Origin: an uncultured Lachnospiraceae bacterium
GTDB lineage: Bacteria > Bacillota > Clostridia > Lachnospirales > Lachnospiraceae
DNA length: 64,000 nucleotides
Assembly: GCA_902778165.1 (NCBI GenBank)
Contig: CACYWQ010000001.1
Coordinates: 248,001-312,000, forward strand
Reading direction: 5' to 3'
Positions 6,266 to 63,472 of the stretch are shown here, in pieces. The position numbers were made by a program, and so were the translations under genes. Position 1 is the stretch's first letter, and the number at the start of each line of letters is the position of its first letter. The notes under the pieces were generated by a model. It was given only the letters and a program-made list of their open reading frames with translations, was not told the DNA's origin and ran no database searches.

Positions 6266-7330
6266 ATGATTAGTATGACGGATTACAAAGACAATTGTAT
6301 AACGAAAGATACTTCAATTATTTCTGCATTAGGCAAATTGGATGAAGCAGAATATAAAATACTGTTTGTCGTGGATGATGAGGACAGAGTTATTGCCTCG
6401 CTGACAGATGGTGATATCAGAAGAGCAATACTTAAGGGAATTCAACTGTCAGCCAAAGCGGTTGACTTCGGAAGAATAGATCCATTTACAGTACTTGAAG
6501 GTGATAAAGAGGCCGCACTTGAAGCGTTTGATAAGCGCAGACTTGATGCTATTCCGGTGATTGATTCGGATAAGAGAATAACAGGTCTCTACGTAAGAGA
6601 TGTTAAAGAGAGCAGAAAAAGAGCAACTGTCTCTATTCCGGTTGTAATTATGGCCGGCGGAAAGGGTACACGCTTATATCCGTATACGAAAGTGCTGCCT
6701 AAACCATTGATTCCTATAGATGATGTACCTATATCAGAAAGAATTATAAAATCCTTTGCTGAAATGGGATGCATGGATTTCAATATGGTAGTTAACTACA
6801 AGAAGAATATGATTAAATCATACTTCAATGAGATTGAAGATGGTTATGATATACACTTCTATGATGAAGATGAACCACTTGGCACTGGAGGCGGATTAAG
6901 CTTAGTTAAAGATTATATTAGTGAGACATTTATATTGACCAATTGTGATATATTGATTCTTGCGGACATTGCGGAGATAGTCCACCATCATAAAGAAAAC
7001 GGTAATAAAGCCACGATGGTATGTTCGCTTAAGTCATTTGAGATTCCGTATGGTGTAGTACATTTCTCCGAAGGAGGCGACATAGAGTCCTTTGAGGAGA
7101 AGCCCAAGATGTCTTTCTTTACCAATACGGGATATTATATATTGGATAAAGAGGTATTTGACTATATTGGAGAGAACGAGAGAATAGGTATGCCGGATAT
7201 CCTGGACAGGATGAGAACCGCAGGATTAAAGATTGGAGTATATCCTATAAGTGATAATTCCTGGCTTGACATGGGGCAATTTGACTCAATGGATGCAATG
7301 GAGAGAAGATTGCGGGAGATAGAGGAATAA
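6266..7330 (+). CDS. CBS-domain sugar nucleotidyltransferase (PtmE-like)
   Basis: 354 residues. Residues 1-120 form a CBS-domain pair (LFVVDDEDRVIASLTDGDIR and, later, IPVIDSDKRITGLYVRDV), and 124-354 form a nucleotidyltransferase domain with VIMAGGKGTRLYPYTKVLPK at about 126-145. The same order is found in PtmE-type enzymes, which make GDP-glucosamine for legionaminic acid in Campylobacter, and in other surface-sugar loci. The CBS pair probably binds a nucleotide and regulates activity. None of the legionaminic acid synthase genes is in the window, so the activated sugar here may differ. It starts 5 bp after the preceding GT4 gene. Confidence 0.82.
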   Translation: MISMTDYKDNCITKDTSIISALGKLDEAEYKILFVVDDEDRVIASLTDGDIRRAILKGIQLSAKAVDFGRIDPFTVLEGDKEAALEAFDKRRLDAIPVIDSDKRITGLYVRDVKESRKRATVSIPVVIMAGGKGTRLYPYTKVLPKPLIPIDDVPISERIIKSFAEMGCMDFNMVVNYKKNMIKSYFNEIEDGYDIHFYDEDEPLGTGGGLSLVKDYISETFILTNCDILILADIAEIVHHHKENGNKATMVCSLKSFEIPYGVVHFSEGGDIESFEEKPKMSFFTNTGYYILDKEVFDYIGENERIGMPDILDRMRTAGLKIGVYPISDNSWLDMGQFDSMDAMERRLREIEE

Positions 7331-7362
7331 CATATATTTCTGCAATATTCGATGATTTGTTG

Positions 7363-7368
7363 TATAAT
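7363..7368 (+). promoter_or_regulatory. possible -10 box upstream of the 7.4-kb gene
   Basis: A perfect TATAAT lies in the 46-bp gap after the CBS-nucleotidyltransferase gene. No good -35 hexamer sits at 16-18 bp spacing, so this is a weak call. If used, transcription would begin near 7375, which would favour the ATG at 7410 over the TTG at 7377 as start of the next gene. Confidence 0.25.
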
Positions 7369-7376
7369 AAAAATGT

Positions 7377-8426
7377 TTGAGTCAAAACATAGTAAAGAGT
7401 GATTGCTGTATGTTTGGTAGAGTAAGGCTTAGATACGAGAGAATAAATAAGAAAATAGGTTATCTTAAGACTTTGAAGTTCTTAAACGCCGCTCAGAAGA
7501 AGTCGTTTATAGACTTAGCTTTAAAGGGTAGAATTGAAGAAGAAGTTGCTATTACCGGTGGATGTGAATATCCTGATAAGACTTTCTTTATAATCAGGCG
7601 TGACGGAATAGAGGCAGGATTATTCTCTTTATATATTACAACCGTTGGTTGGATTAATTATGCACTTGAGAAGGGATATGTTCCAGTTGTTGATATGTCA
7701 ATATATCGGAACAATTATCTTGAAAAATCCAAGCGTGGCAAAGATAATTCTTGGGAATATTATTTTGAACAGCCCATGGGATACGGTATTAATGAGGCAT
7801 ACAAAGGTAAGAGCATTATTTTGTCATCACTTAAATTCACGGAGAATCGTCCTGACGAATCCATGGAGTGTTTCTTAAATAAGAATGGTCGTCTGGATTA
7901 CTGGAAGAAGATTGCGGATGGCTATGTGCATATTAAACAAAATATTATAGAAGATATGCAGGCAGAATACAATCAGCTGTTATGCGGAAGAACCAGAATT
8001 CTTGGAGTGTTGGCTCGTGGAACCGATTATCCGGCATTAAGGCCGCATAATCATCCTATTATGCCGACCGTAGAAGAACTGATAACAGATTCTAAAGATT
8101 TGATAGAGAAATATCAATGTGACGGAATCTTTCTCGCAACAGAAGATAAGAGCATTCTGGGTAGATTTAAAGAAGAATTTGGTGATATGGTAATGACCAA
8201 CAAAAGAGAAATGGTTGATTACAATGGCGGATATATCTGTCAGAAGCACGCGCCCAGAGAGAATGGAGTATATCTGGGCGGCAGAGAATATCTTGCCAGC
8301 ATCTGGATGTTATCAAAGAGTATGTGTCTGTTATGTGGAAGAACAAGCGGCGCTATAGCCATGGTTCTTATGTCACAGAATGAGTATTGTTATAGCAAGT
8401 TCTATAATCTTGGCTATTATGAATAA
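7377..8426 (+). CDS. fucosyltransferase-superfamily-like protein (NodZ/FUT8/GT11 type)
   Basis: 349 residues, cytoplasmic, no membrane segment. The C-terminal half has LGVLARGTDYPALRP (about 207-221), which resembles the HxRRxD/TD nucleotide-sugar motif of the GT11/GT23/GT65 fucosyltransferase superfamily. It is followed by DGIFLATEDKSILGRF and a late ASIWMLSKSMCLLCGRTSG segment, in the order seen in NodZ and FUT8. Assignment is by motif order only. The TTG at 7377 has no good ribosome site; the ATG at 7410 (MFGRVRLRYER) is a plausible true start. It could be another GDP-sugar-dependent transferase. Confidence 0.45.
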   Translation: MSQNIVKSDCCMFGRVRLRYERINKKIGYLKTLKFLNAAQKKSFIDLALKGRIEEEVAITGGCEYPDKTFFIIRRDGIEAGLFSLYITTVGWINYALEKGYVPVVDMSIYRNNYLEKSKRGKDNSWEYYFEQPMGYGINEAYKGKSIILSSLKFTENRPDESMECFLNKNGRLDYWKKIADGYVHIKQNIIEDMQAEYNQLLCGRTRILGVLARGTDYPALRPHNHPIMPTVEELITDSKDLIEKYQCDGIFLATEDKSILGRFKEEFGDMVMTNKREMVDYNGGYICQKHAPRENGVYLGGREYLASIWMLSKSMCLLCGRTSGAIAMVLMSQNEYCYSKFYNLGYYE

Positions 8427-8457
8427 TACCGATAGATAATAATAGGAGGATACAGAT

Positions 8458-8646
8458 ATGCTAGCTTATATTGATCCGTCAGCGGTTACTTATGTGATTC
8501 AGGCTATAGCAGGAGTGATTATTGCCATAGGAGCACTTATTACCGTGTTCCGTCATAAGATAGTTGCTTTCTTTAAGAAGGGCAAGAATGACGAGGCTAA
8601 GGCTGAGATACATTTTGAGGACGATTCTGCAGATAAGGCAGAATAA
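8458..8646 (+). CDS. small membrane protein before the YidC fusion gene
   Basis: 62 residues. A short N-terminal YIDPSAVTYVIQ stretch leads into one hydrophobic helix (about 13-33), then a basic then acidic hydrophilic tail. A strong AGGAGG ribosome site lies 8 bp before the ATG, which shows it is a real gene and not noise. The next gene starts 26 bp later, so the two are probably co-translated. Likely a single-pass inner-membrane partner of the YidC-glycerophosphotransferase fusion; this role is inferred only from position. Confidence 0.72.
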   Translation: MLAYIDPSAVTYVIQAIAGVIIAIGALITVFRHKIVAFFKKGKNDEAKAEIHFEDDSADKAE

Positions 8647-8672
8647 TAAATAATTAGTGAGGTAATGACACG

Positions 8673-10556
8673 GTGATCGCATTTATTGGCAAGGCATTTG
8701 CGATATTACTGGCAGACTGTTATAAGATAATACCAGACTATGGGTTGTCCATAGTCTTATTTACGTTACTAAGTAAGGTGATTCTTCTGCCGATTTCGGT
8801 AATGGTTCAGTACAATTCCATCAAGATGGTCAAGATGTATCCTGATATGAACAGGATTAAGGCCAAATATTTCGGTAATAAAGACATGATATCCGAAGAG
8901 AACTATAAGCTGTATCAGAAGGAGAAGTATCATCCGATGCTTGACCTGGTACCTGTAATTGTTCAGCTTATAGTCTTAATGGGTGTTGTGGAAGGACTTA
9001 AGCATTTTAATGTAACAGACAGCGTATTCTGTGGGTTTGATCTAAGTCTTATCCCGAGTAAGGTGATGGGTAGATATATTCTGGTACCGGTAATAGCTGC
9101 GGTATCGGCGTGGGTTATGTGTTATATACAGAACAAGGTTAATGTTCTTCAGTCAGAGCAGAGTAAGGCTAATCAGTATACTACAATGGGTATATCGGTT
9201 GGCCTGTCGTTATATCTTGGATTCTTCGTAACAGCAGGTGTGGCTCTGTATTGGACCATAGGTAATATTCTTGCGGTTGTTCAGTTATTTGCACTTAATG
9301 TCTGCATAAACCCCAAGAATCATATTAATTATGAGGCGTTACGAGAGAGCAGGAGTGAATTAAATCAGGTAATAGCCACTCAATCCGCTGTTAAGAGTAA
9401 GCAGTCGCAAGAAGAGAAGGATAAGGAAAAACAGGATTATAAGAAGTTCTTCAAATATGGAACAAAGCAGGTAGTTTTTTATTCCGAGAAGAACGGATTC
9501 TATAAATATTTTAAGGATGTAATCGAGTACATATTAGGGAAGACAGACATAGTCATTCATTATGTCACGAGTGATATAAATGACGAAGTATTCGCTATGA
9601 CATCCGAGAATTTCAGGACATACTATATCGGAGAGAACAAGCTTATTGTACTTATGATGAAAATGGATGCCGATATGGTGGTTATGACGATGCCGGATTT
9701 GCAGAAATATCAGATAAAGCGTTCACTTGTAAGGAACGATACCGAGTATGTATATATGGATCATGGTATCAACAGCCTGAATATGATGTTAAGAAAACAT
9801 GCCATAGACTATTTTGATACGGTATTTGTTGCTAATGAACTTGTATATAACGAGATTAGGGCCCAGGAGAAGAAGTATGAACTTAGTGAGAAGAATCTCG
9901 TAAAGTATGGGTATTGTCTGATTGATAATATGATCAAGGCATATGAGGAAGCAGATAAAACAACAGAAATGCACGATAAGCCTACTGTGCTCATAGGGCC
10001 GTCATGGCAGCCTGATAATATTATGGATTCGTGTATAGACGGATTGTTAAGTTCACTATTGAATTCAGATTTTGATGTAATAGTCAGACCTCATCCGCAG
10101 TATGTCAGACATAATGAGCAGAGACTGAAGGAATTGAGGGGCAGATACTCAAAGTATGAGAATTTTACGCTACAGACGGATTTTTCTTCAAACAGTACGG
10201 TATATGATGCAGATATTATGATTACGGATTGGTCAGGAATAGCTTATGAGTATTCGTTTACAACACTTAAGCCAACGCTATTTGTTGACACGCCTATGAA
10301 GGTGATGAACCCGGATTATAAGGAAATAGACGTAGTACCTTTTGATATAGAGATACGCAATAAGATTGGAATATCCATACTTCCCGAAGATTGTAATAAG
10401 GCGGCAGATAGCGCCGGCCGGCTATTGACTGAGAGTGACTTTAGCCCGGAGTCGTTACGGAATGTAAGAGAGCAGTATTTATATAATATAGGCAGTAGTG
10501 CTGAAGTAGGAGCCAGATATATAATCAAGAGATTAATAGAGTATTCTAAGATGTAG
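8673..10556 (+). CDS. YidC/Oxa1-like domain fused to CDP-glycerol glycerophosphotransferase-like domain
   Basis: 627 residues in two parts. Residues 1-215 are a YidC/Oxa1/Alb3-type module with about five membrane helices: FTLLSKVILLPISVMVQYNS at 30-49, where Lys35 stands where classic YidC has its groove arginine, then VPVIVQLIVLMGVVEGL and GVALYWTIGN. A charged linker covers about 225-262. Residues 265-627 match the teichoic acid glycerophosphotransferase (TagB/TagF) fold: YVYMDHGINSLNMMLR, VLIGPSWQPDN, VIVRPHPQYVR and MITDWSGIAYEYSF with the usual His and Asp/Ser motifs. Such domains transfer glycerol- or ribitol-phosphate, or another CDP-linked alcohol phosphate, to a membrane acceptor. 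GTG start with a GAGG site. Confidence 0.85.
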   Translation: MIAFIGKAFAILLADCYKIIPDYGLSIVLFTLLSKVILLPISVMVQYNSIKMVKMYPDMNRIKAKYFGNKDMISEENYKLYQKEKYHPMLDLVPVIVQLIVLMGVVEGLKHFNVTDSVFCGFDLSLIPSKVMGRYILVPVIAAVSAWVMCYIQNKVNVLQSEQSKANQYTTMGISVGLSLYLGFFVTAGVALYWTIGNILAVVQLFALNVCINPKNHINYEALRESRSELNQVIATQSAVKSKQSQEEKDKEKQDYKKFFKYGTKQVVFYSEKNGFYKYFKDVIEYILGKTDIVIHYVTSDINDEVFAMTSENFRTYYIGENKLIVLMMKMDADMVVMTMPDLQKYQIKRSLVRNDTEYVYMDHGINSLNMMLRKHAIDYFDTVFVANELVYNEIRAQEKKYELSEKNLVKYGYCLIDNMIKAYEEADKTTEMHDKPTVLIGPSWQPDNIMDSCIDGLLSSLLNSDFDVIVRPHPQYVRHNEQRLKELRGRYSKYENFTLQTDFSSNSTVYDADIMITDWSGIAYEYSFTTLKPTLFVDTPMKVMNPDYKEIDVVPFDIEIRNKIGISILPEDCNKAADSAGRLLTESDFSPESLRNVREQYLYNIGSSAEVGARYIIKRLIEYSKM

Positions 10557-10568
10557 ATTGGAGATATT

Positions 10569-12389
10569 ATGCAGGCAGTAATATTGGCAGCCGGAATGGG
10601 CAAGAGATTAAAGGAACTTACTAAAGATAATACAAAGTGTATGGTCGAGGTTAATGGAATTACACTTGCTGAACGTGCGCTACGTATTCTGGATAAGAAG
10701 TCTTTGTCCCGTATTGTAATCGTAGACGGTTATAAAAGGGATAATCTGGAGAAATATATTGATACACTTAATATATCCACGCCTATAGAATATGTAAGAA
10801 ATGATATATATGATACGACCAACAATATATATTCGTTATTGCTTGCCAAAGATTATCTTGTTAAAGAAGATACATTATTGCTTGAATCAGATCTGATATT
10901 TGAAGAGGCGCTTATTGATGCCTTAATATATGATGAGCGTAAGACTCTTGCCTTGGTGGATCATTACGAGAGCTGGATGGATGGTACTTGTACGGTAATA
11001 GATGAAGAAGACAGGATAGTTGATTTTATCCCCGGTAAGTACCTTAGATACGAAGAGAAGGAGAAATACTACAAGACCGTAAATATATATAAATTTGATA
11101 AAGAATTCTCCTCTAAGGTATATATACCGTTCCTTGAAGCATATCTTAAAGCAATGGGAGTAAATGAATATTATGAGTCGGTTATTAAGCTTATTGCCAT
11201 GCTTGAAGGGACAGGAATACGAGTAAAGCGCCTTAACGGAGAAGTGTGGTACGAGATAGATGATGAACAGGATCTTGATATAGCGTGTACTCTATTTCCT
11301 AATGATGAGAAGGAAGCTTATGAAACAATTGCATCCAGGTATGGGGGTTATTGGAGATACCCCAAACTTGTAGACTTCTGCTATTTGATTAATCCGTATT
11401 TTCCGCCGGAGAAGATGGTAGATGAATTAAAGTCAAATTTTGCAGAACTGTTAACGCAGTATCCTTCAGGCATGAAGGTAAATTCGCTGTTGGCGGCCAA
11501 GAATTTTGGTGTCCACAGGGAACACATTGTTATAGGTAACGGTGCGGCTGAATTAATTAAGTCTCTTATGGAAAGAGTGGTTAAGGGGCGTATTGGTGTA
11601 GTAAGACCGACTTTTGAAGAGTATCCCAACAGATACAATGGTGAGCAGGTGGTATTCAGAAGCACTAAAGATGATTTCTCGTATTCTGCCGATGATATTA
11701 TGGAGTATTATGACTCACGAAATGTAGATTGGATAATTCTTATCAATCCCGATAATCCAAGTGGAAACTATATTCCTTATGAAGATATGAGAAAATTCAT
11801 CAAATGGTGCAAGGGCAAGGGTATTGGTATAATTGTGGATGAGTCATTTATCGATTTTGCAAGTGAGAACAAACAAAAAGATGTTACATTGATTAATGAA
11901 GCAGATTTGAATTCATACAACAGATTGTATGTCGTTAAAAGCATATCCAAATCATATGGTGTTCCGGGACTCAGGTTGGGGGTAATGGCAAGCAGCGATA
12001 TCGATACTATAAGTGATATTAAGAAGGATGTTGCCATATGGAATATTAATTCGTTTGCTGAGTTCTATATGCAGATATATGAGAAATATAAGAGGGATTA
12101 CTCTAAGGCATTGGAGTTGTTCAGAGAGAGTAGAGAAGAGTTTGTAGAGAGCCTTAAGCGGATTGATTGGATAAATGTATTCCCGTCGGAAGCCAATTAT
12201 GTCATGTGTGAGGTGAAAGATAAGATAGACGTAAAAGAATTGTGCGCGAGGTTGTACAATAACAATATTCTTATCAAAGATCTAACCGGAAAGGTTAATA
12301 ATGGACATCAGTATATCCGCCTTGCTGTGAAGAGAAAAGATGAGAATGAGGTTCTTATAAGTAGTTTTGTGCACATATCTGAAACTTAA
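10569..12389 (+). CDS. cytidylyltransferase (LicC-like) fused to CobD/HisC-like PLP enzyme
   Basis: 606 residues. Residues 1-240 form a LicC-type nucleotidyltransferase (VILAAGMGKRLKELTKDNTK, then CMVEVNG; DTTNNIYSLLLA; LESDLIF). Residues 250-606 are a fold-type I PLP enzyme: INPDNPSGN near 392-400, DESFIDF at 424-430 and SISKSYGVPGLRLG with the PLP lysine at 461. The GVPGLRLG form is closer to CobD (threonine-phosphate decarboxylase) than to ordinary aminotransferases. Inferred: the PLP half makes an amino-alcohol phosphate (ethanolamine- or aminopropanol-phosphate), which the N-terminal half converts to the CDP form. Alternative: a PntC-type aminoethylphosphonate pathway, but no PEP mutase is visible. 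It lies 12 bp after the YidC fusion gene. Confidence 0.8.
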   Translation: MQAVILAAGMGKRLKELTKDNTKCMVEVNGITLAERALRILDKKSLSRIVIVDGYKRDNLEKYIDTLNISTPIEYVRNDIYDTTNNIYSLLLAKDYLVKEDTLLLESDLIFEEALIDALIYDERKTLALVDHYESWMDGTCTVIDEEDRIVDFIPGKYLRYEEKEKYYKTVNIYKFDKEFSSKVYIPFLEAYLKAMGVNEYYESVIKLIAMLEGTGIRVKRLNGEVWYEIDDEQDLDIACTLFPNDEKEAYETIASRYGGYWRYPKLVDFCYLINPYFPPEKMVDELKSNFAELLTQYPSGMKVNSLLAAKNFGVHREHIVIGNGAAELIKSLMERVVKGRIGVVRPTFEEYPNRYNGEQVVFRSTKDDFSYSADDIMEYYDSRNVDWIILINPDNPSGNYIPYEDMRKFIKWCKGKGIGIIVDESFIDFASENKQKDVTLINEADLNSYNRLYVVKSISKSYGVPGLRLGVMASSDIDTISDIKKDVAIWNINSFAEFYMQIYEKYKRDYSKALELFRESREEFVESLKRIDWINVFPSEANYVMCEVKDKIDVKELCARLYNNNILIKDLTGKVNNGHQYIRLAVKRKDENEVLISSFVHISET

Positions 12390-14747: not shown

Positions 14748-15443
14748 ATGAAGATAGGAATAATGCAACCATACTTTTTCCCGTATCTTGGATATTGGCA
14801 ATTAATAGCAGCAGTGGATAAGTATGTTGTGTATGACGATGTGAAATACATTAAAGGAGGTTGGATTAATAGGAATAATATTCTGTTGAACGGTAAAGCA
14901 CATTTGATGACAATTCAACTTGATAAATCTTCTCCTAATCGTATGATAAATGAGATAATGGTGAGAAATGATTTGGTTGAAAAGAATAAAATAATCAGAA
15001 CCTTGGAACACGCTTATTCCAAGGCTCCTTTTTATAATTTGGTTGTTGATATGCTTAAAGAAATCTTAATGCTAGATACCACTATTTCTCTTATGAATTA
15101 TGAGGCTATAATACGTATATGCGAGTATTTGGATATAGGAACGGAGATTATTATATCTTCACAGATTGACAAGGATGAATCCATTCATGCGGATCAAAGA
15201 GTAATAGATATAGTAAAACGGTTAGGAGGCACAGAGTATATTAATGCGATTGGAGGCAGGGAGCTATATAATAAGCAAGAGTTCGCAGCGGAAGGTATAA
15301 CACTTAGTTTTCTGCAAAAGAATCAAGTAGAATACAAACAGTTTAGAGAGCCTTTTATAGATAACTTGTCAATAATTGATGTTTTGATGTTCAATGGTAT
15401 AGAGGACACCAAAAAACTCCTTTCCGAATGTACCCTTGTATAG
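14748..15443 (+). CDS. WbqC family protein (copy 1)
   Basis: 231 residues with the family hallmark start MKIGIMQPYFFPYLGYWQL. WbqC-like proteins occur in O-antigen and capsule loci near aminosugar genes; they are thought to act as sugar N-acyl or related transferases, but their reaction is not firmly known to me. The C-terminal PFIDNLSIIDVLMFNG segment is also typical. It has a very close second copy at 56.3-57.0 kb, the same length and roughly three-quarters identical by eye with no gaps, and a more distant relative at 40.7 kb. Confidence 0.85.
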   Translation: MKIGIMQPYFFPYLGYWQLIAAVDKYVVYDDVKYIKGGWINRNNILLNGKAHLMTIQLDKSSPNRMINEIMVRNDLVEKNKIIRTLEHAYSKAPFYNLVVDMLKEILMLDTTISLMNYEAIIRICEYLDIGTEIIISSQIDKDESIHADQRVIDIVKRLGGTEYINAIGGRELYNKQEFAAEGITLSFLQKNQVEYKQFREPFIDNLSIIDVLMFNGIEDTKKLLSECTLV

Positions 15444-28983: not shown

Positions 28984-29899
28984 AATCAGTTTGGGGAAGG
29001 ATATACTGAATGACAATATTATATTGATTACCGGTCCGAGCAGAATGGGTAAGACGTTACTTTCGCGTTTTTTGTCGACGTACGAAAATGTTGAATGGAT
29101 AGAGGAACCATACTCATTGCGTTTTTTGATTGAAATGTGCGCAAATGGTCAGATAGACAGAAAAACATTCAAGAAGATATTTACAGCTAATATACATGAA
29201 TTGTTTATTGATCAAATATTGTTGAGATGTGCGAATTTTCGACCGAATGACTTGTCGAATATTTGGGATCAAAAGTCAATCCAGGAAATACTTTGCCGCA
29301 TTGAATCAATAAAATCGAGGGAAGATGTGGAGATGTATAAGAAACGGATATCCCCCTATTTTATAATAGATATACCAGATATCTTGCCTTATGTGCATCT
29401 TCTTAGAGATTTTTGTAAAAATTTAACAGTCATTTGTGTTGTAAGAAATCCATACGATGCAGCAGAAGATTATGTAGAAAAAAAATGGTTTGATGAGGCA
29501 GGAAAGCAGAATACTTACAATGATGTGTATAGAAATTATGAGGATAAAAAAGTGTTTGGTTGGTTGCGTCAAGGAGATGAAGAGGCATTTCTGAAATCAT
29601 CACCATACGAGAGGGGAATTATATATTGGCTAAGCATTCTTGATTATGATGGAATAGATGACCCATATATGGGTTATGATATATGTATAAAATATGAGGA
29701 TATTACAGAAAACATTGATAGTGTGATTTGTAAATTATCTAAGTATATTGATTTATTGGATCATAGTACTCCTATGAGTAAAGCGGCAAAGAGCCGAATA
29801 CATAAAGCAGAACAAAAAAAAGAAAAAAGAGATTTGGAGTTTGTGGATAAGAAGCGTCTAATTAATGCCTTGGAGAAGTATGGGTATGAAGATCGGTAA
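28967..29899 (+). CDS. sulfotransferase-like P-loop protein
   Basis: 310 residues. ILITGPSRMGKTLLSRFLS at 19-37 resembles the 5'-phosphosulfate-binding loop of PAPS-dependent sulfotransferases, and TVICVVRNPYDAAEDYV near 154-170 resembles the 3'-phosphate-binding RNPxD motif; WIEEPYSLRFL after the loop also fits. This points to sulfation of a sugar from PAPS in the cytoplasm. The fold could instead serve a kinase-like P-loop reaction. It overlaps the amidotransferase by 17 bp. Confidence 0.62.
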   Translation: MTKTYEISLGKDILNDNIILITGPSRMGKTLLSRFLSTYENVEWIEEPYSLRFLIEMCANGQIDRKTFKKIFTANIHELFIDQILLRCANFRPNDLSNIWDQKSIQEILCRIESIKSREDVEMYKKRISPYFIIDIPDILPYVHLLRDFCKNLTVICVVRNPYDAAEDYVEKKWFDEAGKQNTYNDVYRNYEDKKVFGWLRQGDEEAFLKSSPYERGIIYWLSILDYDGIDDPYMGYDICIKYEDITENIDSVICKLSKYIDLLDHSTPMSKAAKSRIHKAEQKKEKRDLEFVDKKRLINALEKYGYEDR

Positions 29900-30707
29900 T
29901 ATTACTAAGTTAAAGAAAACAACGAAACCCGTTATTTGTGGAAAAAAATTGCTTGTTCTCGCCACAGCACCGGAAGTAAAAGCATACTTTGATGATTATA
30001 GAGTTAGGGAATATTTTCGGGATTATGACGTAGCAGTAATAAACAAAATGCCTCTTTGCTCGGAAACAGAAATGCATGTTATCACTCCTAAATACATTAT
30101 TTTTTTTGATGGTATTTTTTTTGATGATTATGACGAGAAAGGAAACAAAAATATAAGAAAAGAGTGGGTTGAAGAAGTACTTGAAAGAGTTGATTGGGAA
30201 TGCAATTTGGTTGTCCCTTTATTGGCTGAATATCAGATAGAAAATCCACATATAAGGCAAATATATATTGGAGTATTAAAAGCAAAATATAATAGACTTA
30301 CGAGCGTGCTTTATAGACATAATATAGTTAATATGGGATTCAATAATGTGGTTATGGGTGCGGTGTATTTTGGTATAACTTTCGGATATAAGCAAATAGC
30401 TCTAATGGGGTTCACATATGGGAGTATTAATATTGGAGATTATATGGATGAAGATGGATTACATGTTGCTACATATCCCCATTATTATGATGAAAAAGTA
30501 AGTCACATTTTGATTCCAAATAATGAATTATTTGATGGAACTACAAGTTATTTATATAAGAGAGCTGTGAGAGAAGTGGAATCTATGTACAAGTTTTGCG
30601 AATTAGCCAGATATGCAGAAGATAACAATGTAGAAATAATAAATTATACCCCTAATAACACTATAGATGTATTTAAGTCTAAAAATTTGGATGGGTTAAT
30701 AAAGTGA
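29880..30707 (+). CDS. GT42/DUF115-like putative glycosyltransferase
   Basis: About 276 residues. LLVLATAPEVKAYF near the N-terminus, then PKYIIFFDGIFF, then VVMGAVYFGITFGYKQIALM with GFTYG, and a late NVEIINYTPNN follow the order of motifs in Campylobacter Cst-type GT42 sialyltransferases and DUF115 proteins (nucleotide loop, SGxxMxxxAxxLGYKxIYLxG, then a CPNS-like motif). Identity is low, so only the fold is suggested. GGAG at 29872 serves ATG 29880 or 29886 better than the ATG at 29865. A CMP-sugar donor would fit the CMP-transferases at 52.8 and 62.7 kb. Confidence 0.45.
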   Translation: MGMKIGNITKLKKTTKPVICGKKLLVLATAPEVKAYFDDYRVREYFRDYDVAVINKMPLCSETEMHVITPKYIIFFDGIFFDDYDEKGNKNIRKEWVEEVLERVDWECNLVVPLLAEYQIENPHIRQIYIGVLKAKYNRLTSVLYRHNIVNMGFNNVVMGAVYFGITFGYKQIALMGFTYGSINIGDYMDEDGLHVATYPHYYDEKVSHILIPNNELFDGTTSYLYKRAVREVESMYKFCELARYAEDNNVEIINYTPNNTIDVFKSKNLDGLIK

Positions 30708-52816: not shown

Positions 52817-53578
52817 ATGAGAATAGTAGGAGTAATCCCTGCAAGATTTAAATCGTCTAGATTTCCTGGGAAACCATTGGCAGATATCTGTGGAAAACCA
52901 ATGATCTGGTGGGTTTATCAGCAGAGTAAAAAAGTTGATGAGTTTGATGCAATATATGTTGCAACTGATGATGAGCGTATATTTGATGTATGTCGAAAAC
53001 TGGATATAGAGGTAATTATGACATCAGATACACATCCTACCGGAACTGACAGAGTAGGTGAAGTGGCAGAGAATGTTCATGCCGATTTGTATGTAAATAT
53101 TCAGGGAGACGAGCCGATGATTGAACCAGAGACAATAAGGGCAGCTATAACTCCGTTTTATTCAAAACCAGATCTAATGGTAACAAATCTAATGACAAAA
53201 ATAACGGATCCTGTTGATTGTGTAAATTATACAATACCTAAAGTAATAACAAATAAAGATAATTTGGCGGTTTATATAACTAGAAGCGTTGCACCCCATC
53301 CTAAGGGCAGGATAGATTTTTCATATTATAAACAGGTATGTGTTTATGGATTCAGGCCGGAAGCGCTTAGTTTTTTTTGCGAGTATGGTAAGAAATATGG
53401 TAAAGCTAAAATAGAGGCTATAGAAGATATAGAAATTTTGAGATTTATAGAGAATGGATATCTTGTTCAATATATTGAAGTAGAGTCTGATACTGTTGCA
53501 GTGGATACACCCAAAGATTTAGAGAAAGTTTGTAAACTTTTAGCAAAAAGGAAGAAAACGATTAATAGAGGTGTTTAA
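52817..53578 (+). CDS. KdsB-like CMP-ulosonic acid synthetase
   Basis: 253 residues. VIPARFKSSRFPGKPLADIC (6-25), YVATDDERIFD, the central NIQGDEPMIEPETIRAA near 94-110 and a late VDTPKDLEKV match 3-deoxy-manno-octulosonate cytidylyltransferase (KdsB), which couples CTP to an eight-carbon 3-deoxy-2-ulosonic acid. KdsB is unexpected in a locus without LPS genes. Its stop is directly followed by the aldolase gene with no gap, so the substrate is likely the aldolase product and not ordinary KDO. Confidence 0.85.
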   Translation: MRIVGVIPARFKSSRFPGKPLADICGKPMIWWVYQQSKKVDEFDAIYVATDDERIFDVCRKLDIEVIMTSDTHPTGTDRVGEVAENVHADLYVNIQGDEPMIEPETIRAAITPFYSKPDLMVTNLMTKITDPVDCVNYTIPKVITNKDNLAVYITRSVAPHPKGRIDFSYYKQVCVYGFRPEALSFFCEYGKKYGKAKIEAIEDIEILRFIENGYLVQYIEVESDTVAVDTPKDLEKVCKLLAKRKKTINRGV

Positions 53579-55156
53579 ATGAAACAAGCTTTTGCGTTGG
53601 ACTGTACGCTTCGTGATGGCGGGTATTGTAATGAATGGAGATTTGGTTTCTCAAACATAAAGAAGATTGTATCGCATTTAATAACTGCTCGAGTTGAAGT
53701 TATAGAATGTGGCTTCCTAACAAATAAAGTTGTTTACGATAAAGACGTATCTATATTTACGGATGTTTCGCAACTTGTAGAAGTCATTCCCAAACATAAT
53801 GATAGTTCTAAATTTGTTCTTATGGTGAATTTCGGAGAGTATGATTTTACGCATCTTCCACCAAAGAAGGATTCTGTTATTGATGGAATTCGCCTCGCAT
53901 TTCACAAAACTAATAGATTAGAAGTTATGGATGCATGCAGATGTATTAAAGACAAAGGATATGATTTATATATTCAGCCTATGGTGTCTATGCTTTATTC
54001 AACAGATGAATTTGAAGAGATGATTTGTATGTTGAGTAAATTCTCGCCTAAAGCTTTATATATTGTAGATAGTTTTGGCATGATGCATAAGGAAGATGTG
54101 CTGCGATACTTTCGAATTCTTGAAAGACTTCTTCCCTCAAACGTAATAATTGGATTTCATTCACATAATAATCTTCAACTTGCATACTCGAATGCAATTA
54201 TTTTATTGGAGTGTAATGGAGAGCATTCTCTTGTGATAGACTGTTCTATATATGGAATGGGAAGGGGTGCAGGAAATCTAAATTCAGAGTTGTTTTTATC
54301 AGAGTTGAATGCATATTATGGTAAGAAATACGAGATAAAACCTCTTTTAACAATAATGGATGAAGTGATAAGCAGGTTTTATGAAGAGTCTCCATGGGGA
54401 TATTCTTTGCCAAATTATTTGTCTGCCAAGCATATGATTCATCCAAATTACGCAAATTATTTGAATTCAAAAAGGACACTAACTGTAGAGAATATAGATG
54501 AAATCTTTTCAATGATTGGTTCGGAAGAAGGAAGCGAATATAATGAGGACTTTATAAGTGATTTATATGTAAAATATATGTCAACTGGTGTATCTAGAAA
54601 CGAACATTTATTTGAAATAAAGAAAGAATCAGAAAATAGGACAGTATTACTTATTGCTCCAGGGAAAAGCGCGATTGATGAGAAAAACTTAGTTGAAAAC
54701 TTCGTAAAAGAGAATAATCCGATTGTTATTAGTATTAATCACGAGTATCCGATAATTGCTTCTGACTATATTTTTGTTAGTAATATCCGAAGATTCAAAA
54801 ATATAGAGAGGAAGCTTTATTGCAAAACAATATCCACCTCAAATATAAAATCTTTAGAGACATATGCAAGCGTTGATTATTTTAAATTATTGAATCCGAT
54901 TGATTGTGTAAGAGATAATGCTGGACTAATGGCTATTAGATTTGTTCTGGAAGAATTGAATGCAAAAGAAGTTTTCATCGCAGGTATGGATGGGTATTCC
55001 CCATATATATATTCAAACTTCGAGACACGTGAGATGGCATTTGTGACATCAGCGGATAGACTAAATGAGATGAATGTGGGGCTTAAAAAAGCTATCGATT
55101 TGTTTTCAGAGATGATTGACATTCATTTTATTACAACTTCTTTGTTGGATAAGTAA
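53579..55156 (+). CDS. HMGL-type pyruvate aldolase fused to GT42/DUF115-like domain
   Basis: 525 residues. Residues 1-290 are a DRE-TIM barrel aldolase like 4-hydroxy-2-oxovalerate aldolase (DmpG): LDCTLRDGGYCNEW at 7-20 with the metal-binding Asp, and IIGFHSHNNLQLA near 189-201 with the two metal-binding histidines. Such enzymes join pyruvate to an aldehyde to make 3-deoxy-2-keto acids. Residues 355-525 resemble a DUF115/GT42 fold: TVLLIAPGKSAIDEKNLVEN, then AGLMAIRFVLEELNAKEVFI with AGMDGY. Proposed: make the acid here, activate it with the KdsB-like enzyme, and perhaps transfer it with the C-terminal domain. Products are inference. Confidence 0.72.
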   Translation: MKQAFALDCTLRDGGYCNEWRFGFSNIKKIVSHLITARVEVIECGFLTNKVVYDKDVSIFTDVSQLVEVIPKHNDSSKFVLMVNFGEYDFTHLPPKKDSVIDGIRLAFHKTNRLEVMDACRCIKDKGYDLYIQPMVSMLYSTDEFEEMICMLSKFSPKALYIVDSFGMMHKEDVLRYFRILERLLPSNVIIGFHSHNNLQLAYSNAIILLECNGEHSLVIDCSIYGMGRGAGNLNSELFLSELNAYYGKKYEIKPLLTIMDEVISRFYEESPWGYSLPNYLSAKHMIHPNYANYLNSKRTLTVENIDEIFSMIGSEEGSEYNEDFISDLYVKYMSTGVSRNEHLFEIKKESENRTVLLIAPGKSAIDEKNLVENFVKENNPIVISINHEYPIIASDYIFVSNIRRFKNIERKLYCKTISTSNIKSLETYASVDYFKLLNPIDCVRDNAGLMAIRFVLEELNAKEVFIAGMDGYSPYIYSNFETREMAFVTSADRLNEMNVGLKKAIDLFSEMIDIHFITTSLLDK

Positions 55157-56310: not shown

Positions 56311-57006
56311 ATGAAGATAGGAATAATGCAGCCGTATTTCTTTCCGTATCTTGGATATTGGCAGTTGATTGCTGCAGTGGATAAATATGTTGTATATGAC
56401 GATGTTACATACATTAAAGGCGGATGGATTAACAGGAATAATATCTTGTTAAATGGCAATATACATTTGTTAACCATACAACTTGATAAGTCGTCTTCTA
56501 ATCGAATGATTAATGAGATTAATGTAAGAAATGATTCGGTTGAGAAGAAGAAGATTATGAGGACCTTGGAATATGCATATTCAAAAGCTCCGTTTTATGA
56601 AATTATTTCCGACATGATTGGGGGAATAATCATGCAGGATACTACGATTTCTCTAATGAACTACAATGCGGTATTGCGTATATGCGATTATCTACATATA
56701 GATACGGACATTATTCTATCGTCACAGATTGATAAAGACGAATCTAAACATGCAGATGACAGAGTAATAGATATAGTTACTAGATTAGATGGTACAGTGT
56801 ATATTAATGCGATAGGCGGACAGGAGTTATATAATAGAGATAAGTTTGCTGATAAAGGTATTAAACTTAGTTTTTTGTCAAAAAATGAGATAATCTATAA
56901 TCAGTATAGGCAACCATTTATAGATAATTTATCAATAATCGATGTTTTGATGTTTAACAGTGTAGAGGATACAAGAGAACTTCTGGAAGAATACAAACTT
57001 GTATAA
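56311..57006 (+). CDS. WbqC family protein (copy 2)
   Basis: 231 residues, same length and start (MKIGIMQPYFFPYLGYWQL) as the copy at 14.7 kb and aligned with it without gaps; differences are scattered, at roughly a quarter of positions by eye. Both genes keep the C-terminal PFIDNLSIIDVLMFN. Here it follows a WecF-like transferase, while copy 1 follows an FkbM methyltransferase, suggesting both blocks make the same or a very similar acylated amino sugar. Confidence 0.85.
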   Translation: MKIGIMQPYFFPYLGYWQLIAAVDKYVVYDDVTYIKGGWINRNNILLNGNIHLLTIQLDKSSSNRMINEINVRNDSVEKKKIMRTLEYAYSKAPFYEIISDMIGGIIMQDTTISLMNYNAVLRICDYLHIDTDIILSSQIDKDESKHADDRVIDIVTRLDGTVYINAIGGQELYNRDKFADKGIKLSFLSKNEIIYNQYRQPFIDNLSIIDVLMFNSVEDTRELLEEYKLV

Positions 57007-60461: not shown

Positions 60462-61433
60462 GTGAAGAAAGTATTAATTATCGGTGCCGGAAATATTGCA
60501 TCTGGATATGATCAACCCAATTCTGAGTGGATTTTAACTCATGCGCATGCTATAAAATGCAATAATATGTTTAGTCTTGTTGGATTTTATGATGTAGATC
60601 GAGTAAAGGCGGAAGATGCAGCAAAAAAGTGGAACACCATTGCTATAGATGATTTAGAAATGATAAAAGACTCTGTTGATGTGGTGTGCTGTGCAGTCCC
60701 AGACAATCTCCATTATGACGTTATGAAGGAATTGTATAATTGGAACAATCTTCAGGTAATTATATGTGAGAAACCTATAACAAACAAACTTTGTTCAGCA
60801 AGGGAATTGTCGAATCTATATTTAGAGAGTGACAAAGAAGTTATTGTAAATTATTCAAGAAGATATATAGATGAGTTTATAGAGGTTAAGGAGTGGATAG
60901 TCAACAAAGCGGGGAAATTGACGGTTGGGACTTGCTTGTATGGAAAAGGCATTATTCACAATTGCTCTCATATGATTAATCTTCTCCACTTTCTGTTTGG
61001 GAGAATAGAGATTGACTATATCGGGAGACATTTTTATGATTATAATGAAGATGATCCAAGTGTTGACTTTTCAGTAAAGGCAAAAGAAGGAAAGATATAC
61101 TTTCATCCCATTCCATGTAATAATGTTACTGTGTTTGAATTTGACTTATGTTTCGAGAAAGTAAGAATAAAATATGATGATACGGATGGTTATATAAAGT
61201 ATTATGTGGTGGAAGAATCGGATGAGGGAGAATTGAATTATTGCTTGCGAAAAACGGTCAGCATAAACAGAAGCAATGCTTTAGTAAATTTATATACAAA
61301 TGTATATAATGTGCTAGAAAAGAAAGAAAAACCTAAAGCCAATATGGAAGACGCGGTAGAGGCATTACAAGTTTGTTATCAAATAAAAGAAAGAGTATTA
61401 ACGGAGAAAAAAAATGGCAGTTTTAGCGATTAA
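60462..61433 (+). CDS. Gfo/Idh/MocA-type sugar oxidoreductase
   Basis: 323 residues, GTG start with AAAAGG just before it. The NAD(P)-binding motif VLIIGAGNIASGYDQ is at 4-18, CCAVPDNLHYDVM near 76-88 and the substrate motif CEKPITN at 102-108 with the catalytic Lys104. The family oxidises or reduces ketosugar nucleotides, often giving a 3-keto product for the aminotransferase that follows. It overlaps the next (DegT) gene by 20 bp, which supports that pairing. Confidence 0.87.
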   Translation: MKKVLIIGAGNIASGYDQPNSEWILTHAHAIKCNNMFSLVGFYDVDRVKAEDAAKKWNTIAIDDLEMIKDSVDVVCCAVPDNLHYDVMKELYNWNNLQVIICEKPITNKLCSARELSNLYLESDKEVIVNYSRRYIDEFIEVKEWIVNKAGKLTVGTCLYGKGIIHNCSHMINLLHFLFGRIEIDYIGRHFYDYNEDDPSVDFSVKAKEGKIYFHPIPCNNVTVFEFDLCFEKVRIKYDDTDGYIKYYVVEESDEGELNYCLRKTVSINRSNALVNLYTNVYNVLEKKEKPKANMEDAVEALQVCYQIKERVLTEKKNGSFSD

Positions 61434-62709
61434 TGGAGGACAGAAAGTAAGGAATAGCATGTTTCCTGCATATAGGGTTATAGCCGATGAAGAAGAAAGA
61501 GCGGCTATTCGCGTGCTTAGATCAGGGATTCTCTCTGGTTACCTTGGATGTTGGGATGAGGGTTTCTATGGTGGGTCAGAAGTGAGAGCACTAGAAGAAG
61601 AGTGGGCAGCTCATTTCGGAGTAAAACATGCTATTGCAGTTAATTCCGCAACCTCTGCGTTGTATATTGCGACAGGAGCTATAGGGATTTCTCCTGGAGA
61701 TGAAGTCATTGTATCACCATATACGATGAGTGCATCTGCAGTAGGACCCTTAATATATAATGGTATTCCGGTTTTTGCGGATATAGAAAGGGATTATTTC
61801 GATCTTGATCCTCACTCAATCGAAGAAAGAATCACGAGTAATACTAAGGCTATAATTGTTGTTAATATATTTGGTCAACCATATGATATGGACAGTATTA
61901 ACGAAATTGCCCAGAAAAATGGATTAAAGGTGATTGAAGATAATGCACAAGGTCCAAATGCAAAGTATGGTGACAAGTTTGCAGGCACATTAGGAGATAT
62001 AGGAGTTTTTTCTCTGAATTATCATAAGCATATTCATTGCGGAGAGGGCGGAATAGCAGTAACTGATAGTGATGAATTGGCGGAGAGAATGAGATTGATT
62101 CGTAATCATGCAGAGGCTGTTGTTGGCGACAAAGGTTATAAGGATCTAACCAATATGATAGGGTTTAATCTTCGAATGACAGAAATAGAAGCATCTATAG
62201 CGAGGGAACAACTAAAAAAACTGGATTACCTTGTAGATGAAAGAGTATCAAATGTTAATTATTTGAATAGTAAATTTAGTAATATACCTTGTTTGAGGAC
62301 CTTACCTGTAAGGAGTGGTTGTAAGCATGTATATTATATGCACCCTTTGATATATAATAGAACAGCGGCAAAAGGAGTTACCCGTAAGAGATTTGTTGAG
62401 GCAGTACGTGCTGAGTTGATGCCTGCAGAACTTAGGGAGGCAGAGGGGGCTCTAGTTAGTTACGGATATGTAAGGCCGTTGTATTTAGAACCTATATATC
62501 AAGAACGAATTGCATATGGAAAAGATGGATATCCATTTAATAATTCTAATATTTCGTATGCAAAGGGAATATGCCCGATATGTGAGGATATGCATTTTGA
62601 AAAGCTTATTACGCATGATTATGTATATGCAGGCTTGACAAAAAATGACCTGGATGATGTTGTGTCTGCCTTTGAAAAGGTATATGAGAATATTGACGAG
62701 TTAGTGTAA
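61414..62709 (+). CDS. DegT/DnrJ/EryC1 sugar aminotransferase (long form)
   Basis: 431 residues, longer than the usual 370-390. PLP lysine is Lys205 in SLNYHKHIHCGEGG, with VIEDNAQGPNAKYG before it. The C-terminal region has an insert around 340-395 (YVRPLYLEPIYQERIAYGK, ICPICEDMHFEKL) like DegT enzymes that work with Gfo/Idh partners. Expected step: transamination of the keto sugar from the preceding enzyme to an amino sugar. Next gene starts 19 bp later. Confidence 0.88.
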   Translation: MAVLAINGGQKVRNSMFPAYRVIADEEERAAIRVLRSGILSGYLGCWDEGFYGGSEVRALEEEWAAHFGVKHAIAVNSATSALYIATGAIGISPGDEVIVSPYTMSASAVGPLIYNGIPVFADIERDYFDLDPHSIEERITSNTKAIIVVNIFGQPYDMDSINEIAQKNGLKVIEDNAQGPNAKYGDKFAGTLGDIGVFSLNYHKHIHCGEGGIAVTDSDELAERMRLIRNHAEAVVGDKGYKDLTNMIGFNLRMTEIEASIAREQLKKLDYLVDERVSNVNYLNSKFSNIPCLRTLPVRSGCKHVYYMHPLIYNRTAAKGVTRKRFVEAVRAELMPAELREAEGALVSYGYVRPLYLEPIYQERIAYGKDGYPFNNSNISYAKGICPICEDMHFEKLITHDYVYAGLTKNDLDDVVSAFEKVYENIDELV

Positions 62710-62728
62710 CTATGCAATTGGAGAAAGT

Positions 62729-63472
62729 ATGAGTCAAAATAAGAAATATATTGCAACTATTGAAGCAAGAATGACTTCCTCAAGACTGCCAGGAAAAGTT
62801 CTTATGGAGGCATGCGGGAAGCCGTTGTTGCAACACCTTATAGAAAGGGAGAAAAGATGCACAGAGGTTGATGATGTGGTTGTGGCTACAACGATTAACA
62901 AGGAGGATGATCCAATTGTTGAATTATGTGAGCACATTGGGTGTAGCTATTATCGTGGAAGTGAGAATGACGTTCTTGGTAGAGTATTAAATACAGCGAA
63001 GGAGTTTGAAGCGGATGTCATAGTGGAGACTACAGGCGATAATCCTTGTATTGATTGGCGCCAAATGGACTATTTAATAAGATTTTATCGGAATAACAAT
63101 TATGATTTTGTAACAAATATGATGGAGCAGTCTTTCGCTGAGGGGTTTGAATTTCGAATCTTTTCAACGGAAATGTTGGAATACGTGAATGATATATCGG
63201 ATGATCCGCTTGACCGAGAACATGTAGCCATATACTTTCCCAAACATCCCGAAACATTTAAGTGTTATAACTGGAGAGCAAGAGGAAGAGAATATAGACC
63301 TGATTTGCAAGTCACACTGGATGAAATGGGAGATTATTTGTTAATAAAAAATGTGTTTGAAGCGTTATATCCATTGAATAATGACTTTCAATATATGGAT
63401 GTTGTTGGCTATTTGAGCAAGCATAAAGATGTCAGGGCATATATAGATGGCATTAAAAGAACAGTTATTTAG
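62729..63472 (+). CDS. SpsF-like cytidylyltransferase
   Basis: 247 residues. IATIEARMTSSRLPGKVLME near 8-27 and VIVETTGDNPCIDWRQMDYL near 97-116 match the SpsF branch of CMP-sugar or nucleotidyl transferases found in spore-coat and flagellin glycan loci. VTLDEMGDYLLIKNVFEAL near 194-212 fits the family's C-terminal part. It probably activates a nonulosonic-acid-like or other sugar acid, or acts in an amino sugar route. The next gene starts 1 bp after its stop. Confidence 0.83.
   Translation: MSQNKKYIATIEARMTSSRLPGKVLMEACGKPLLQHLIEREKRCTEVDDVVVATTINKEDDPIVELCEHIGCSYYRGSENDVLGRVLNTAKEFEADVIVETTGDNPCIDWRQMDYLIRFYRNNNYDFVTNMMEQSFAEGFEFRIFSTEMLEYVNDISDDPLDREHVAIYFPKHPETFKCYNWRARGREYRPDLQVTLDEMGDYLLIKNVFEALYPLNNDFQYMDVVGYLSKHKDVRAYIDGIKRTVI

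Follow-up and report, generated by a model that had tools for sequence, protein, structure and literature searches.

In a 64,000-nucleotide stretch from the genome of an uncultured Lachnospiraceae bacterium (assembly GCA_902778165.1, contig CACYWQ010000001.1, positions 248,001 to 312,000; hereafter the window), two adjoining genes at 52817-55156 encode a KdsB-like cytidine monophosphate (CMP) synthetase, P0001, and a two-domain protein with an aldolase barrel, P0002. Judged from sequence, P0002 probably represents a pyruvate-aldolase synthase that replaces KdsA or NeuB and feeds CMP activation, with a second exit linked to a thiamine diphosphate (ThDP) enzyme in sister loci; we put the probability of this reading at about two in three. 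To our knowledge, the CMP-activated 3-deoxy-2-ulosonic acids (3-deoxy-D-manno-octulosonic acid (Kdo), sialic, legionaminic and pseudaminic acids) all derive from synthases dependent on phosphoenolpyruvate (PEP). A literature search found no description of the route or of the gene pair, in line with an earlier reading of this DNA (the sequence-only reading) that had called the route undescribed.

A CMP synthetase gene adjoins a predicted pyruvate aldolase gene

The two open reading frames (ORFs) follow each other in the order and with the zero gap that had been noticed before: the TAA of the KdsB-like gene occupies 53576-53578 and the ATG of the P0002 gene 53579-53581. P0001 scores over the cut-offs of the KdsB subfamily models NF009905 (285.1 bits vs 255) and NF003952 (263 vs 193), passes the equivalog TIGR00466 narrowly, by about 2 bits (157.4 vs 155.2), and stays under those of NF003950 (213.8 vs 234) and the equivalog NF003948 (173.8 vs 281). 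It matches Pfam CTP_transf_3 at 159.6 bits, and its best match in the PDB is KdsB 1gq9 (E 5.5e-44). A Kdo-type identity of the product acid is unproven.

P0002 comprises 525 residues (53579-55156, forward strand), and its predicted structure has a pLDDT of 93.8. It matches the Pfam family HMGL-like (PF00682) at 62.3 bits, with a gathering score of 29, as do 70 of 70 homologues at E 0.01, and it contains both LDCTLRDGGY and GFHSHNN. R12, D13, H194 and H196, which by analogy with DmpG-type enzymes we take to be metal and substrate residues (RD and the HxH metal site), are invariant in an alignment of all 96 context-labelled homologues. Among solved structures, P0002 comes nearest to 3dxi, AmnG, DmpG and further HOA-type aldolases, with 3dxi the closest both by sequence (E 1e-25) and by fold (E 1.1e-18); a literature search for "3DXI" returned unrelated uses only. 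The proposal of an HMGL/DmpG-type aldolase, as opposed to a PEP-dependent enzyme of the KdsA type, is thus borne out by family, motifs and nearest structures, and the expected metal residues are in place. In this assembly (95.34% complete) the KDO8P synthase model TIGR01362 has no match, and the only DAHP_synth_1 match is AroFGH (TIGR00034, 264.1 vs a cut-off of 173.2).

The pair recurs in many genomes

Scanning 84,980 species genomes with a pattern produced at least 590 matches, among them at least 580 relatives, of which the best 80 were kept. Of these named loci 75 were retained, and 30 loci of Lachnospirales-type relatives and the window were added; ORFs of 400 residues or less or lacking a C-terminal domain match were left out (L129, for example, had no labelled ORF and L149 no C-terminal domain). 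Removal of two near-duplicates (106 to 104) yielded 104 distinct two-domain copies, which were classified by their neighbours. Flanks of up to 9 kb, shorter at contig ends, were fetched, and "no synthetase" refers to these flanks. Neighbours were labelled with small purpose-built hidden Markov models, with an NCBIfam check on one or two representatives each.

A CMP synthetase gene lies on the same strand within 9 kb of 62 of the 104 copies and within 150 bp of 57, compared with 51 of 1006 other ORFs from the same loci that adjoin one (Fisher p 9e-37). The adjacency is therefore not due to chance, and the gene pair is found well beyond the window. In 54 of the 57 close pairs the KdsB- or NeuA-type gene is upstream of the aldolase gene, the median gaps being -4 and -1. 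Two loci, L114 (787 aa) and L120 (768 aa; Pfam CTP_transf_3 at 130.8 bits), harbor natural single-ORF fusions of aldolase, C-terminal domain and KdsB. Without the fusions, 8 copies would count as having neither a separate synthetase nor a ThDP enzyme. With these fusions counted, a KdsB- or NeuA-type synthetase accompanies 64 of the 104 copies, one of which has a ThDP enzyme as well, a ThDP enzyme alone accompanies 34, and 6 have neither. Cultured carriers include Lactimicrobium massiliense, Proteocatella sphenisci and Polaribacter porphyrae. Named carriers comprise 52 Bacillota, 6 Bacteroidota and one to three genomes for each of seven other phylum labels, several being metagenome bins whose phylum labels may be wrong. 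The earlier description as a Gram-positive-type locus is plausible but understates this spread.

We mapped the contexts onto a tree of 102 copies, obtained by a quick search after two copies under 440 residues were dropped. The ThDP context requires 5 changes (shuffled mean 28.7), and KdsB- and NeuA-type partners each require at least 13 changes on well-supported branches. The type of CMP synthetase was thus often swapped beside one aldolase family, and the ThDP sink represents a rarer, clustered switch. Most of the residues that distinguish ThDP- from CMP-type copies belong to the barrel (H109/K, Y161/S, S195/A, L199/F), as would fit the use of different aldehydes. A PGP-like HAD gene is located downstream within 150 bp of 34 of the 104 copies, overlapping by a median of 8 bp; a KdsC-like phosphatase adjoins 7. 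HAD phosphatases occur beside both CMP- and ThDP-type copies, the count for the former including one weak 35-bit label (L120). Their frequent adjacency suggests that the aldol product often carries a phosphate. Among viral contigs, 6 pattern matches included no relative; of 173 plasmid records none covered 80% of the query, and the 20 listed were mostly HOA aldolases and single-domain relatives.

Sister loci combine the aldolase with a ThDP enzyme

A ThDP enzyme of the type of acetohydroxyacid synthase (AHAS) and YerE is encoded near 35 of the 104 copies. It is AHAS-like but under the NCBIfam acetolactate-synthase cut-offs; its YerE/ErwE-like label is our assumption, set by the neighbours, which often include CDP-3,6-dideoxyhexose genes. 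Representatives of the RfbF, RfbG and RfbH genes beside ThDP-type aldolases score over their NCBIfam cut-offs, and a strong RfbF or RfbH neighbour is present in 22 of 34 ThDP-only copies versus 2 of 63 CMP-only copies. The sequence-only reading had missed this second sink as well as the HAD phosphatase that so often adjoins the aldolase.

What is described of branched sugars is compatible with such a sink. In a 2025 review, ErwE is given a donor preference for 4-hydroxy-2-oxobutanoate, -pentanoate and -hexanoate in the modification of CDP-4-keto-3,6-dideoxyglucose (PMC12247030); 4-hydroxy-2-oxo acids are the products to be expected of a pyruvate aldolase, and the passages of the review on ErwE name no aldolase as donor source. 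Caryophyllose is described as 3,6-dideoxy-4-C-[D-altro-1,3,4,5-tetrahydroxyhexyl]-hexose (PMC5706390); its branch is 2'-deoxy, as would be expected if it came from a 3-deoxy-2-oxo acid by decarboxylation. The word "aldolase" is absent from the main texts of the Mycobacterium marinum papers searched, and an aldolase in the caryophyllose locus is not confirmed.

Single-domain relatives of about 340 residues were also seen. Those of L060, L062, L063 and L047 adjoin ThDP enzymes; those of L067-L070 lie among unrelated genes, so that the neighbour adjacency is not general to the whole barrel family. In L060, a protein of 1066 residues (6466-9666, reverse strand) joins a single-domain aldolase to two similar long segments, glycosyltransferase-like by eye, and its gene adjoins that of the ThDP enzyme and two genes resembling split transketolase halves. 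L062 (8969-11598) and L063 (7250-9879) each place a single-domain aldolase next to a ThDP decarboxylase-like gene, with no CDP-dideoxyhexose genes among the neighbours listed; such a pair may make 3-deoxy aldoses. L047 (3227-11262, reverse strand) combines a two-domain with a single-domain aldolase in one locus, which also encodes two ThDP enzymes.

The C-terminal domain of P0002 is DUF115/MptE-like

Modelled alone, residues 338-525 (188 aa) adopt a confident fold (pLDDT 94.1). Profile-profile alignment with 22 MptE-like domains (hhalign) gave a probability of 94.9 and an E-value of 4.4e-8 over 132 columns, and Foldseek retrieved viral models annotated as MptE-like (E 8.1e-5 to 7.6e-4) and, in the PDB, SteA (E 3.5e-4). 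On these profiles and models, the domain belongs to the DUF115/MptE-like superfamily. Direct sequence-profile matches are weak, namely an MptE-type pterin kinase at E 0.017, SteA at 0.059 and the GT42-type sialyltransferase 9c08 at 0.3 over 58 profile positions, and a ribosomal protein at E 0.49 gauges the noise of this search. No GT42 entry is among the best 50 of 1340 PDB fold matches; the GT42 family PF06002 was found in 0 of 145 genomes, a search in which the controls were silent as well. Pfam assigns no family to the C-terminal part of the window's own copy. Among homologues, PF01973 matches 17 of 70 C-terminal domains at E up to 1 (best 4.1e-4) and 3 of 70 full-length proteins at E 0.01. 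Of the likeness to GT42/DUF115 folds put forward earlier, the DUF115 part holds in the predicted structure; GT42 kinship, weakly supported by the match to 9c08, is unproven.

Conserved positions of the domain are P361 and G362, N387, N402, R405, T420, S421 and N422, D446 and N447, G469, D471 and G472, and T519. G362, N387, N402, R405, N422, D446, G469, D471, G472 and T519 are kept equally in 34 ThDP-type and 62 CMP-type copies. A profile of the domain, searched in 190 genomes, hit 36 places, of which 30 are fusions with the aldolase, 3 are copies that are broken or cut off at an edge, and another 3 matched weakly (E 1e-4 to 8e-4); no intact free-standing copy was found.

These distributions bear on the function proposed by the sequence-only reading, in which the domain would be a CMP-ulosonate transferase, one protein both making and transferring the acid. 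The superfamily fold and the weak match to a solved sialyltransferase are in keeping with such a role, and beside the window's pair the only obvious transferase gene is a WecF-like one. However, the conserved residues show no loss in the 34 ThDP-type copies whose fetched neighbourhood has no CMP synthetase, and in 30 of the 36 places the domain occurs as an aldolase fusion. Separate transferase candidates exist in other loci: a polysialyltransferase-type cluster is present in 12 (10 of the CMP type, 2 unassigned) and an MptE-like one in 11 of the CMP type, each cluster having been scanned through one representative. Because conservation is equal where the fetched flanks have no CMP synthetase and no intact free-standing copy was found in the 190 genomes, a transferase role is not favoured, and we regard it as unlikely. 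The likeliest role is one common to the CMP and ThDP contexts and coupled to the aldol step.

A proposed pathway and what weighs against it

In the pathway that we propose, whose reaction, direction, substrates, phosphate and C-terminal domain role we infer, a single unusual 3-deoxy-2-ulosonic acid would be synthesized by the P0002 aldolase and activated by P0001. In the aldolase domain, pyruvate, bound to the metal as its enolate, would add to an aldehyde (probably an aldose or its phosphate), and a 4-hydroxy-2-oxo acid would result. In loci with a HAD phosphatase gene downstream, this acid would probably arise in phosphorylated form and then lose its phosphate. The KdsB-like enzyme would couple the acid to CMP, ready for use by a polysaccharide glycosyltransferase whose gene lies elsewhere. 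In other genomes, the AHAS/YerE-like ThDP enzyme would decarboxylate the same kind of acid and attach it to a CDP-4-keto-3,6-dideoxyhexose. In both sinks, the fused DUF115/MptE-like domain would most likely be aldol-coupled, supplying, phosphorylating or holding the aldehyde.

That the aldolase is the likely synthase of the KdsB-activated acid, as had been suggested before, is supported by the adjacency, the two fusions, the lack of a KdsA match and two genomes, G167 and G178, in which profile searches of 13 genomes with the family found neither KdsA nor NeuB. In both, genes for a NeuA-type synthetase, the aldolase and a KdsC-type phosphatase stand in a row.

Several observations weigh against this pathway. 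No HAD phosphatase gene lies beside the window's pair, and the window's genome has no KdsC match. This genome carries 4 NeuB-family and 7 CTP_transf_3 matches (6 over cut-off), so that the KdsB-like enzyme could in principle receive its substrate from a PEP-dependent synthase; the argument accordingly draws on other genomes as well. KdsA exceeds the TIGR01362 cut-off in 1 of the 13 genomes (G071). P0002 itself is far under the HOA-aldolase cut-offs TIGR03217 (89.3 vs 286) and NF006049 (95.7 vs 229), and it has a tyrosine (Y16), shared by 87 of 96 homologues, where AmnG has the histidine of its DGMH motif, the catalytic base in DmpG-type enzymes. Catalysis would thus differ from textbook DmpG.

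The synthases of the carrier genomes allow for a scheme in which the KdsB-like enzyme activates a NeuB- or KdsA-type product and the aldolase has a catabolic role or a different product. The nearest NeuB match, on the pair's own contig and roughly 15 kb further downstream, has a synthetase-family match of its own beside it. NeuB-family matches are present in 11 of the 13 genomes; in 5 of these they are weak only (best E near 1e-10), and there the same loci also match the KDO8P-synthase model, under cut-off. This scheme leaves the adjacency, the zero-gap order and the single-polypeptide fusions unaccounted for, as well as the CMP synthetase and aldolase of G167 and G178 and the fact that one aldolase family has changed between KdsB- and NeuA-type partners again and again; we consider it quite improbable. 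That the barrel belongs to the Claisen-type (acyl-CoA) or carboxyl-transfer enzymes of the HMGL superfamily, a reading to which the missed cut-offs, the tyrosine and a Pfam match at family level only lend themselves, is very improbable, because Foldseek on the barrel ranks 3dxi and HOA aldolases (E 1e-18 to 2e-15) ahead of isopropylmalate and homocitrate synthases (E 3.5e-12 and weaker), and the neighbouring CMP synthetases and ThDP enzymes, going by family chemistry, both require a 2-oxo acid.

If the pyruvate-aldolase pathway is correct, a replacement of the synthase that is spread over many phyla would predict new acidic sugars in gut and environmental bacteria annotated as carrying "Kdo" genes, and it would supply the donor step missing for erwiniose, caryophyllose and other ThDP-branched sugars.

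Features of the locus and other genes in the window

The border between the two domains of P0002 (Table 1) is approximate and was taken from the predicted structure.

Table 1 Coordinates of the gene pair and its domains within the window
Feature	Position	Strand	Basis
GGAGG, likely the ribosome-binding site for P0001	52808..52812	+	read from sequence
KdsB-family CMP-ulosonate synthetase P0001, 253 aa	52817..53578	+	NCBIfam, Pfam and PDB matches
Aldolase domain, about residues 1-335 of P0002, HMGL/DRE-TIM barrel	53579..54583	+	Pfam, fold match
C-terminal DUF115/MptE-like domain, residues 338-525 of P0002	54590..55153	+	profile-profile and fold match

The contig is rich in ulosonate genes between about 196 and 367 kb, a region around the window (248-312 kb) that holds 3 of the 4 NeuB and 6 of the 7 CTP_transf_3 matches of the genome. 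At 60462-63472 of the window, genes for a Gfo/Idh/MocA dehydrogenase, a DegT aminotransferase and a second CTP_transf_3 protein stand in a row, perhaps for another activated amino sugar acid. The gene at 29865-30707 (280 aa) has no Pfam or NCBIfam match and DUF115/GT42-like stretches by eye; its product may be a free-standing transferase. Two closely similar WbqC-like genes (14748-15443 and 56311-57006; Pfam on the second) belong to one polysaccharide region. Uncommon domain combinations are an odd fusion of a YidC/60KD_IMP-type insertase with a CDP-glycerol glycerophosphotransferase-like domain (8673-10556, 627 aa) and a protein with both nucleotidyltransferase and class I/II aminotransferase domains (10569-12389, 606 aa).

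Comparison with known systems

The closest solved structure, 3dxi, is the N-terminal domain of the putative aldolase BVU_2661 of Bacteroides vulgatus and shares LDCTLRDGGY with P0002; its entry title assigns no function, and the crystal construct omits the C-terminal part; the likeness given here is that of the barrel. With the 4-hydroxy-2-oxovalerate aldolases DmpG, BphI and AmnG, P0002 shares the HMGL barrel, the RDG and HxH residues and the GAGN motif. Those enzymes act in aromatic breakdown with an acylating aldehyde dehydrogenase as partner, whereas the P0002 family has a fused C-terminal domain and resides in polysaccharide loci. In DmpFG, the dehydrogenase hands the aldehyde to the aldolase. 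We tentatively extend this likeness to a reading that we think doubtful, in which the large, undescribed family is a pyruvate-based 3-deoxy-2-ulosonate hub serving bacterial surface glycans, with CMP activation and ThDP-dependent branching of CDP-deoxysugars (erwiniose/caryophyllose type) as its exits, and the MptE-like domain, a new catalytic partner cast in a role like that of the dehydrogenase, prepares and hands over the aldehyde. By profile and fold this domain resembles DUF115/MptE-like proteins and SteA and, weakly by profile, a GT42-type enzyme; it differs in the lack of a Pfam match in the window's copy and in being seen, apart from fragments and weak matches, fused to the aldolase.

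The branching systems YerE, ErwE and MMAR_2332 (yersiniose, erwiniose and caryophyllose) resemble the sink of the sister copies, not that of the window's copy: an AHAS-like ThDP gene and RfbF, RfbG and RfbH stand beside the sister aldolases, and the 4-hydroxy-2-oxo acid donors of ErwE, as given in PMC12247030, are like the predicted aldolase product. The KdsA-KdsC-KdsB pathway of CMP-Kdo has a KdsB-family activator in common with the pair, and a KdsC-type phosphatase in common with the 7 copies that adjoin one (two representatives over the TIGR01670 cut-off); in the place of KdsA, which has no match in the window's genome, the aldolase is found here. The NeuB-NeuA pathways of sialic, legionaminic and pseudaminic acids share a NeuA-type partner with about half of the CMP-type copies, the one scanned being far under the PseF cut-off (66.7 vs 205.7). 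They rely on the PEP-dependent NeuB, where the loci described here have a predicted pyruvate aldolase.

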